Source of the DNA: Nitrospirales bacterium
GTDB lineage: Bacteria > Nitrospirota > Nitrospiria > Nitrospirales > UBA8639
NCBI GenBank assembly: GCA_029261295.1
Contig: JAJDBP010000017.1
Span: 124,001-188,000 of the forward strand
DNA: 64,000 nt
Direction of reading: 5' to 3'
Position 1 is the first letter of the stretch; every line of letters starts with the position of its first letter. The notes under the pieces were generated by a model. That model made no database searches. It had not been told where the DNA came from and was given only the letters and a program-made list of their open reading frames with translations. Below are positions 51,379-53,895 of the stretch, piece by piece. The translations under genes and the position numbers were made by a program.

Positions 51379-53013
51379 ATGAGTATCATTCCTACACCGC
51401 ACAAAGCCTCTCAATTCAAAAAATTACTGCTGTCTCCTCAGCTGGAATTTATTTGTGAGGCGCATAATGGACTGAGTGCAAAGATCGTGGAAGAGGCTGG
51501 GTTTCAGGGAATTTGGGCTAGTGGACTCTCCATTTCTGCACAATTTGGGGTACGCGACAACAACGAAGCTAGTTGGACGCAAGTCCTCGACAATCTAGAA
51601 TTTATGTCCGATGCCACGCAGATTCCGATCTTGTTGGATGGCGACACCGGCTATGGCAATTTCAATAACATGCAACGTCTCATACGGAAATTAGAACAAC
51701 GCCATATTGCGGCCGTCTGCATTGAAGACAAATTATTTCCCAAAACAAATAGTTTCCTCAAAGGGGAGGCACAACCTCTCGCCGACATGGATGAATTTTG
51801 CGGGAAAATAAAGGCTGGGAAAGATGCTCAGACCGACCCTGACTTTTGCATCATTGCACGAGTGGAAGCCTTTATTTGTGGATGGGGATTAGCCGAAGCC
51901 ATGCGTCGAGCTGAAGCCTATCAGCAAGCTGGAGCCGATGGAATATTGATACACAGTGCATTAGCGGTACCTGATGAAATCTTGGCCTTCAAACAGGAAT
52001 GGGCAGATCATTGTCCCGTCGTCATTGTTCCAACTAAATATTATTCCACCCCCACCGATGTCTTTCGACAGCATGGAATTTCCATGGTTATTTGGGCCAA
52101 TCACATGCTCCGAGCCGCAGTCGCAACCATGCAAACGACGGCCCGCACTCTGAAAGAACAAGAAAATCTTCTCTCTATTGAAGATAAAATTATTCCTGTA
52201 TCCGAAGTCTTTCGCTTGCAAGGGGCCGCAGACCTTCAAGAAGCTGAACAACGCTATCTTCCAAAAAGTGCAGAGCGCGCATCAGCCATTGTGTTAGCCG
52301 CATCTCGTGGAGATGAGTTGGGCGAACTGACCAATGATAAACCCAAAACCATGGTCCCCATTCGAGGTCTGCCTATCCTCGCACATATCATGGATGCCTA
52401 TAACACCGTCGGGATCAAAGATATAAGCGTGGTCCGAGGCTACAAAAAGGAAGCCGTGAATCTGCCTCATTTGACCTATGTGGATAACGATGACTTTTCT
52501 AAAACAGGAGAATTAGACTCGCTATTAAAGGCACTACAGGCAAAAACTCATCTTGATCAAGACATCATTATTTCCTATGGTGATGTGTTGTTTAATTCGT
52601 ATATTCCACAAGCGCTCCTTCAAGAAAAAGACGACTTTGTCATTTTTGTAGATAGTGATTGGCAAGAAAAAACTAGTTACTCCCGATTGGGCGGCTTTGC
52701 TGAATGCACGACTCCTAATACCCGTAAAGCGTTTCATACGGCCATCCACCTTAAGCAATTGGGAACAGATATCTCTCAAGACAACATTCACGGTGTATGG
52801 ATGGGATTTCTCAAAATTTCCCCGTCAGGTGCGAAACAACTGCAAACAGTGCTGCCCAAGTTACTTGCCGCCCCATCTAATCAAAAAGCTGGCATGGCCA
52901 CCCTGTTTCAAGAACTACTCAAAAACCAACAACCGATTCGCGTGCTCTACACCGTCGGACATTGGTTGGACATCAATAACTTCGATGATGTCGTACAGGC
53001 TGGAAACTTCTGA
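51379..53013 (+). CDS. Phosphoenolpyruvate mutase fused to a nucleotidyltransferase (PepM-NTase)
   Basis: A 544-residue bifunctional protein. Residues 1-~295 are the PEP mutase: [13 protein letters not shown] (~86-97), and [10 protein letters not shown] at 116-125, the diagnostic EDKxxxxxNS that separates PepM from isocitrate lyase relatives. Residues ~300-544 are a nucleotidyltransferase with [23 protein letters not shown] at 307-328 and VSYGDVLF-like core ([11 protein letters not shown]). The first domain makes phosphonopyruvate from PEP, the second likely activates a phosphonate or aminoalkylphosphonate with CTP. No phosphonopyruvate decarboxylase or AEP transaminase is in the window. An ordinary start ATG at 51379 follows a clear intergenic spacer. 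Confidence 0.9.
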
Positions 53014-53281: not shown

Positions 53282-53566
53282 ATGCCCTGGTACCGCGTTG
53301 CCTATTTACCTGCTGTTCTCTCCGACCTGAGAGCCACTGAACCATCCATAGCCCAGCGACTATTGGATAAGACCAAGTGGCTGGCTTCTAATGCGGTCAA
53401 CCTTCGACACGATTCCATGCACCCTGACCTCCCTGGCCTCATTCAATATGCCGTAGCTGACTGGCGCATTTTGTATTCTATCGATCGAGAAGATCATGAA
53501 GTGGCTATTCATCGTATCTGTACCCGACATTATTTATATCGCCGGACGCCCCTGACTAAAGACTGA
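53282..53566 (+). CDS. RelE/ParE-superfamily toxin
   Basis: A 94-residue protein with the RelE fold: MPWYRVAYLPAVLSDLRATEPSIAQRLLDKTKWL, then DLPGLIQYAVADWRILYSIDREDHEVAIHRICTRHYLY. The core strand pair with WRILYSID and the C-terminal R-H residues match RelE-type ribosome-dependent mRNA interferases. It pairs with the upstream antitoxin-like gene. The next gene overlaps its stop by one base. Confidence 0.88.
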   Translation: MPWYRVAYLPAVLSDLRATEPSIAQRLLDKTKWLASNAVNLRHDSMHPDLPGLIQYAVADWRILYSIDREDHEVAIHRICTRHYLYRRTPLTKD

Positions 53567-53895
53567 TGTTGTGGCAAGAACAGATTGCTCAAGAGCTAGG
53601 TAAGGCTACTGAAGGAATCAAAAATGGGAATAATGGATTGGCCCGCGTGTGTGCTCGACGAGCTGTTGCCATTGCCACAAAACATTGGATTACTCGCTCT
53701 GGAAAATCAGATTGGCAAGGAGATACCTTGCATCAGCTTCGTCGGATTCAGGAAGAAAATACCTTTCCCATGGAGGTAAGAAAAGCCGCTCAACGACTTA
53801 TTACTAAAGTTACCGAACAAACCAAGTTACCTATGACAACAAATCCCATCTCCGATGCCCGCATCATTATTGACCATTTGAATTCAAATTTTTGA
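53566..53895 (+). CDS. Helical hypothetical protein coupled to the RelE gene (HEPN-like?)
   Basis: A 109-residue mainly helical protein whose ATG overlaps the RelE stop (TGATG), so it is translationally coupled. The segment EGIKNGNNGLARVCARRAVAIATKHWITRSG resembles HEPN-type helical proteins in composition, but the R-x4-6-H ribonuclease motif is absent. It may be a third element of the module, or a passenger. Function unknown. Confidence 0.6.
   Translation: MLWQEQIAQELGKATEGIKNGNNGLARVCARRAVAIATKHWITRSGKSDWQGDTLHQLRRIQEENTFPMEVRKAAQRLITKVTEQTKLPMTTNPISDARIIIDHLNSNF

Follow-up and report, generated by a model that had tools for sequence, protein, structure and literature searches.

The stretch of DNA analysed here (hereafter the window; G000:C9:124001-188000, 64,000 nucleotides of a 4.06-Mb genome) comes from a member of the Nitrospirales. 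It contains an ORF that joins a PEP mutase to a nucleotidyltransferase-fold domain, with the following features.

51379..53013, forward strand: ppm (aepX/pepM) gene, an ATG-start ORF of 544 aa encoding a PEP mutase with a C-terminal nucleotidyltransferase-fold domain
51400..52263, forward strand: PEP mutase domain, residues 8-295 (phmmer to 1m1b, VIA-align to 1s2v_B)
51724..51753, forward strand: ten-residue motif matching EDKxxxxxNS, residues 116-125
52273..53010, forward strand: fused PntC-like nucleotidyltransferase-fold domain, residues 299-544 (PF12804; VIA-align to 6pd2_C)
52303..52317, forward strand: altered pyrophosphate loop SRGDE, residues 309-313, replacing GXG(T/S)R, with Glu313 at the position of PntC Arg15
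52345..52347, forward strand: Lys323 (PntC Lys25), retained according to the residue comparison of fused and stand-alone domains
52582..52584, forward strand: Asp402 (PntC Asp106, presumably a metal ligand), retained according to the same comparison

The initial annotation had described the ORF as a PEP mutase-nucleotidyltransferase fusion, and domain searches agreed with this description. The protein matched PF13714 (206 bits, residues 13-258) and PF12804 (41.8 bits against a cut-off of 27, residues 303-424), and scored 389.7 bits with TIGR02320, above the cut-off of 319.55. Residues 8-297 matched the solved PEP mutase of Mytilus (phmmer to 1m1b, E = 2.8e-127), with which the mutase shares 65% identity. 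An AlphaFold2 model of the protein (27 sequences in the alignment) had a mean pLDDT of 86.3 and a pTM of 0.64, and its mutase domain was superposed on 1s2v_B with a VIA-align Z score of 38.5 (rmsd 3.1, 287 aligned residues, 65% identity). The EDKxxxxxNS motif, from which the gene had first been called a true PEP mutase, is present, and all the positions that we take to form the active site of the Mytilus enzyme (W44, S46, D58, D85, D87, E114, K120, N122, S123, R159 and H190) are conserved. Every sequence test applied identifies the window gene convincingly as a PEP mutase.

Within a sample of 295 genomes from the phylum, 64 others conserve this two-domain ORF (72-84% identity), which excludes a chance origin; in other sequence collections, identities reached 90%. 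The neighbours of the gene were conserved in at most six of 22 other loci of the same mutase type (type A, see below). Directly downstream, at 53282-53895 of the window, are a ParE-like toxin ORF (PF05016, 21.9 bits, cut-off 23) and an ORF of 109 aa. A phage origin of the gene was rejected, as the eight matching phage records were all partial and less than 60% identical. Two scans of viral contigs yielded nothing in the first and one partial PEP mutase in the second. An IMG/VR contig of 4950 bp (L210) breaks off within a PEP mutase gene, of which it has the 5' part with the motif EDKIFPKTNS, and the preceding ORF appeared LicD-like by eye.

The initial annotation had regarded the gene as an orphan, with decarboxylase and transaminase genes missing nearby. 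Such genes are indeed distant, since the best Ppd-like pair of the genome and its sole AEPT match are located on contig C35 and the window gene on C9. Searched with the phosphonopyruvate decarboxylase (Ppd) model, the genome gave two adjacent half-matches on C35 and three much weaker matches elsewhere. The gene is no orphan at the genome level, as these half-matches belong to a cluster of phosphonate-type genes:

L113, 13884 down to 8262, reverse strand: second locus, in the order ppdA-ppdB-AEPT-PntC-CDP-alcohol phosphotransferase-flippase
L113, reverse strand: PpdA, 165 aa (TIGR03297, 132.4 bits; cut-off 312.5 for the single chain)
L113, reverse strand: PpdB, 193 aa (TIGR03297, 172.0 bits; cut-off 312.5 for the single chain)
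L113, reverse strand: class V aminotransferase (AEPT), 362 aa (TIGR03301, 339.9 bits; cut-off 360.8)
L113, reverse strand: stand-alone NTP transferase, PntC-like, 253 aa (best PDB match 6pd1)
L113, reverse strand: CDP-alcohol phosphotransferase, 494 aa (PF01066 in the C-terminal part, 49.1 bits; cut-off 22)
L113, reverse strand: LPG-synthase-TM/HpnL-like membrane protein (TIGR03476, 154.7 bits, cut-off 195.65; TIGR00374, 76.2 bits, cut-off 43.2)

A genome search for other phosphonate genes had been proposed as a way to refute phosphonate production. It found this cluster instead, and the PEP mutase together with the second-locus genes makes phosphonate production likely, as judged by sequence. 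Both halves of the decarboxylase score under the Ppd cut-off and are classed as decarboxylase-like only. No decarboxylase above the TIGR03297 cut-off of 312.5 was found in the window genome, so that the split PpdAB would have to serve. The best family of the aminotransferase is TIGR03301, yet its scores with the three AEP-transaminase models that it matched are all under cut-off, and it is classed as AEPT-like. The best PDB match of the stand-alone NTP transferase is the PntC of Treponema denticola (6pd1, E = 1.5e-17).

Among 13 loci of relatives, all six cluster genes were found in seven, part of them in five (L146, L150, L151, L152 and L154) and none in one (L155, from G055). The second locus of G029 is broken in two, with the phosphotransferase and flippase genes (L154) about 0.42 Mb away from the AEPT gene (C1, about 1.708 Mb and 2.130 Mb). 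Clusters of families f2 and f4 carry two additional ORFs, one of about 325 aa that weakly resembles squalene-hopene cyclase and a small one that looks Rieske-like by eye, which separate the PntC-like gene from the CDP-alcohol phosphotransferase gene (L148, 5707-6998; L151, 7572-8872). Stop codons were present inside the tblastn-derived coordinates of the stand-alone NTP transferase in L197 (7039-7806), L203 (6613-7350) and L209 (9930-10655), reflecting either a frame error or a broken gene.

From these gene families and the two-locus layout, we infer a pathway in which the window enzyme would convert PEP to phosphonopyruvate and the two-subunit decarboxylase (PpdA and PpdB) would convert phosphonopyruvate to phosphonoacetaldehyde. 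The class V aminotransferase would then produce 2-aminoethylphosphonate (AEP) and the stand-alone PntC-like enzyme CMP-AEP. The CDP-alcohol phosphotransferase would transfer the AEP group to a lipid alcohol of the membrane, and the HpnL-like protein would flip or export the product. We consider it quite probable that the window gene makes phosphonopyruvate and feeds such an AEP-lipid pathway split over two contigs, with its fused domain most likely being non-catalytic or regulatory. The putative lipid acceptor is assigned from family names only.

The proposed pathway resembles known phosphonolipid clusters. Those of lichen-associated Nostoc and of Burkholderia, as far as they are described in the accessible text of the source (PMC5987646), contain pepM, ppd, AEPT, NTPT, CDP-alcohol phosphotransferase and hpnL. 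All these parts occur in the window genome, where ppd, AEPT and HpnL are represented by relatives under curated cut-offs. In contrast to the clusters in that text, the genes are here divided between two loci, the decarboxylase has two subunits, the N-terminus of the phosphotransferase is extended by about 290 aa, and a scan of nine second-locus proteins showed no 2OG-Fe(II) oxygenase. According to its annotation, Mycetohabitans rhizoxinica has a single locus with a fused aepX, a single-chain aepY, AEPT, PntC, LPG-synthase-TM and CDP-alcohol phosphotransferase, and Roseomonas marmotae has the same gene set, rearranged, in one locus. The Roseomonas cluster, on a plasmid (L162), is located among genes annotated as ispH, hpnH, hopanoid-associated phosphorylase and shc, a layout suggestive of a connection between hopanoids and phosphonate lipids. 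A hopanoid acceptor is a lead prompted by this cluster and by the HpnL-like flippase. Nearly all relatives (57 of 59) scored above the cut-off for squalene-hopene cyclase, whose presence therefore says little about such an acceptor. G044 (96% complete) has no cyclase above cut-off, no Ppm fusion and no strong match to the phosphotransferase; G055 has the cyclase and lacks the pathway.

The initial annotation had left the choice between phosphonolipid and phosphonoglycan decoration, of which a surface lipid is the likeliest. The glycan option it raised, as well as degradation, to which the involvement of PhnW-type transaminases in AEP breakdown would lend some weight, together make an unlikely alternative to lipid synthesis: the second locus combines a CDP-alcohol phosphotransferase with a flippase-like gene, and none of its nine scanned proteins, three of which matched nothing, gave a match to LicD or a glycosyltransferase. 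AEP degradation was rejected, because the genome has no phosphonatase above cut-off (best score 34.1 bits, cut-off 220).

The decarboxylase also has relatives in sulfonate metabolism. Sulfopyruvate decarboxylase ComDE is a two-subunit TPP decarboxylase, and the PpdA/PpdB architecture is similar. PpdB scores higher with the model of the sulfopyruvate decarboxylase beta subunit (TIGR03846, 188.1 bits, cut-off 221.5) than with the Ppd model (172.0 bits), and four genomes of the order keep ppdA-ppdB-AEPT without Ppm. The decarboxylase-transaminase locus might thus serve sulfonates (sulfopyruvate to sulfoacetaldehyde to taurine), with the PEP mutase as a separate phosphonate relic. We regard this as improbable, since PpdA prefers the Ppd model (132.4 bits against 114.4 bits) and no match to the phosphosulfolactate synthase ComA (PF02679) was found in the genome by a search that was positive in the controls B. 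subtilis and M. jannaschii. Moreover, the genomic company of the decarboxylase is of the phosphonate type: the locus has a PntC-like enzyme, its phosphotransferase co-occurs with Ppm, and the Ppm-less genomes have lost a conserved lysine of AEPT.

This co-occurrence was examined in the 295 genomes of the phylum sample with cuts of E <= 1e-60 for the Ppm fusion and AEPT and E <= 1e-30 for the phosphotransferase. The Ppm fusion was found in 93 genomes, the phosphotransferase in 95 and AEPT in 99. Ppm and the phosphotransferase were both present in 92 genomes and both absent from 199; Ppm occurred alone in one (G215, in which a short phosphotransferase-like match under the cut adjoins Ppm) and the phosphotransferase alone in three (G036, G252 and G272). 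Within the order, 91 of 98 genomes have Ppm, and all four genomes without the phosphotransferase also lack Ppm (Fisher's exact test: p = 9.7e-6); these four belong to two genera and represent at most a few events. In the closer set of 59 genomes, the fusion was recognised by eye in 52, either whole, partial (G047) or in two frames (G050), and was missing from G002, G004, G008, G036, G044, G045 and G055. The pathway genes are common to most of the sampled relatives in the order of Nitrospira.

Ppm and the phosphotransferase are both absent from G055, G185, G258 and G328, which keep ppdA-ppdB-AEPT. In their AEPT, the lysine of the GKCIQG motif, which we take to be the PLP lysine, is replaced by D, V, D and D, respectively. 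The remaining 50 of 54 distinct AEPT ORFs have this lysine, some of the 54 being overlapping pieces from one genome. It is also kept in two MAGs without a Ppm match, G002 (66% complete) and G008 (92% complete). The ppdA-ppdB-AEPT genes of L191 (G055), L193 (G328), L204 (G258) and L192 (G185) have identities of 60-70%, and the rest of the pathway is not nearby. It is possible that the Ppm-less set represents a repurposed TPP enzyme with a pseudo-transaminase.

The C-terminal domain of the window protein has the fold of PntC. Its model was superposed on T. denticola PntC (6pd2_C) with a VIA-align Z score of 26.8 (rmsd 2.3, 226 aligned residues, 20% identity), in a tie with GlmU (4ac3, Z score 26.0). 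The T. denticola AEP cytidylyltransferase (6PD1/6PD2) is also the closest solved relative of the stand-alone NTP transferase of the second locus. The stand-alone copy has the PntC signature GXG(T/S)R...PK and the residues of the AEP side (Glu104 or its acidic counterpart, Lys153 and Glu196). The fused domain has neither the signature, reading SRGDE...PK in the window protein, nor these AEP-side residues. An independent profile-profile alignment paired the same loop positions (Glu313 with Arg15). In the window protein the equivalents of Arg15 and Lys153 are lost and Lys25 is kept, whereas the stand-alone copy keeps all three.

We compared 121 distinct fused domains (100 of type A, 13 of type B and eight of type C) with 50 distinct stand-alone NTP transferases in T. 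denticola PntC numbering, the latter set being picked by similarity to a canonical copy, which favours canonical residues. Arg15 is present in 0/121 fused domains and 50/50 stand-alone proteins; it is Glu in 100/100 type A domains and a gap in one type C domain. Lys25 and Asp106 are conserved throughout (121/121 and 50/50). At position 104, fused domains have Tyr (120/121) or Phe (1/121), and stand-alone proteins have Asp in place of Glu104 (50/50). Lys153 was found in 3/121 fused domains and 49/49 stand-alone proteins, and Glu196 in 0/121 and 49/49, with one gap among the stand-alone proteins, in columns whose alignment is less certain. The second acidic pair is E-D in the stand-alone proteins (Glu220 and Asp222; 49/49, one gap), D-N in type A (100/100), E-D or D-D in type B (13/13) and mixed in type C. 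As a control, three rhizobial stand-alone NTP transferases from clusters with an unfused Ppm keep GXGSR...PK and W-x-EID. The fused loci from outside the Nitrospirota were five, all plasmid records (L159-L162 and L165); spirochaetes, Firmicutes and Bacteroidetes lie outside this set.

Judging by these residues, the fused domain appears catalytically degenerate. With the pyrophosphate-binding Arg and the AEP-contacting acids lost, it would most likely have a non-catalytic or regulatory role and not be the activating enzyme. It might sense CTP or CMP-AEP, or hold PntC. The initial annotation had called the domain cytidylyltransferase-type, and taking it for the working cytidylyltransferase is probably wrong given the loss of Arg15 and Lys153. 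Alternatively, the fused domain could be an active nucleotidyltransferase with another substrate, such as phosphonopyruvate, phosphonoacetaldehyde, hydroxyethylphosphonate or a sugar phosphate. Its fold and the invariant Lys25 and Asp106 leave room for some activity, as does the second acidic pair kept in type B, and the type A exchanges (Arg15 to Glu and position 104 to Tyr, each in 100/100) are uniform and unlike random drift. A functional cytidylyltransferase fused to Ppm is known in Fom1, but it belongs to another family (PF01467). This alternative is nevertheless doubtful, as Arg15 is lost from all the fused domains and Lys153 from all but three, and type A has the D-N acidic pair. In the accessible text of the T. 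denticola PntC study, alanine mutants of Arg15, Lys25 and Lys153 have less than 10% activity (PMC6697681). According to the same portions of that work (Rice et al. 2019, PMC6697681), PF12804 ranks first among Ppm fusions (33% of 1485), and some clusters are noted to have a separate nucleotidyltransferase besides the fused one; the assays in these portions do not include the fused PF12804 domain. The fusions described there have the same two domains as the window protein; here, in contrast, Arg15 is lost without exception and the gene is on another contig than the pathway genes.

Each of the 93 Ppm-positive genomes had exactly one match at E <= 1e-60, with at most four candidates scored per genome. 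These matches fall into three types by identity to the window protein: type A, the window type (72-100%), in 65 genomes, type B (35-41%) in 24 and type C (52-54%) in four. Types A and B were never found together among the 93 genomes. In G014, a MAG outside the 295-genome sample, an entire type C gene is accompanied by a C-terminal fragment of a type A gene. The motif EDKxxPKxNS is present in 99/99 distinct type A and 8/8 type C proteins. Type B is the same two-domain fusion, and the 13 distinct type B proteins examined all have EDN[VI][YF]PKRCS and lack EDKxxxxxNS. With TIGR02320, still their best family, four scored type B proteins reached 269.5-287.2 bits, under the cut-off of 319.55. In eight alignment rows, the active-site positions L48, K116 and N122 are changed in type B, S46 is changed in two of the eight, and W44, G47, D58, D85, D87, E114, D115, K120, S123, R159 and H190 are kept.

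The types also differ in location. In family f3, the type B gene is adjacent to the cluster and divergent from it in 21/21 genomes, at most about 6 kb from AEPT (coordinates compared by eye). Outside f3, it is far from the cluster on one contig in G023 and on another contig than the cluster in G025 and G199. Type A is on the same contig as AEPT in 14/65 genomes and, by eye, never nearer than about 220 kb. A single-chain ppd match starts 74-131 bp downstream of the type A gene in 24 of 75 loci (those with at least 1.3 kb downstream, from 80 loci retained), and the one copy scored reached 486.3 bits against the cut-off of 312.5. At the syntenic divergent site, decayed type B remnants were found in six of 23 type A genomes examined and no remnant in 17. 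N-terminal type B pieces with stops or a frameshift are present in G049, G056 and G294, with a C-terminal piece as well in G049 and G294, where the middle is gone. G046 has two type B pieces, and G193 and G309 only the final 20 to 37 residues. The six genomes belong to one genus, and their remnants may go back to one displacement event.

In a possible course of events, type B became redundant once type A had arrived, perhaps together with its own ppd, which would imply that type B has the same function. Displacement of an equivalent enzyme explains this pattern best, and type B may be an unrecognised PEP mutase. In a tree of Ppm domains, type B is placed on long branches beside a Streptomyces PEP mutase (95/61) and phosphonopyruvate hydrolase, and the tree neither proves nor excludes PEP mutase function. 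We lean slightly towards the view that part of the order uses a motif-less PEP mutase, which would form the C-P bond without the canonical Lys/Asn, and that the fused PF12804 domain is a pseudo-nucleotidyltransferase.

Our search of the literature, which lay mostly outside subscription journals, found no report on PEP mutase phosphonate synthesis in Nitrospira. A study of Flathead Lake metagenomes detected pepM and a divergent ppd in Nitrospirota, and its accessible text presents neither a pathway layout nor an analysis of domains nor a second type of mutase (PMC10734540). The fusion architecture is already known. The split layout, the order-wide conservation, the degeneracy of the fused domain and the motif-less alternative mutase are apparently new in the literature so covered.

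The Nitrospirales include major nitrifiers. If the proposed pathway works, a widespread nitrifier order would make phosphonolipids and would be a potential source of reduced organic phosphorus. According to the accessible text of one survey, only proteins with EDK(X)5NS were accepted as PepM (PMC8931226). If type B is a true PEP mutase, genome surveys relying on this motif would miss the type B producers. Likewise, if the fused domain is degenerate as proposed, a nucleotidyltransferase domain fused to a PEP mutase should not be taken as a phosphonate-activating enzyme.
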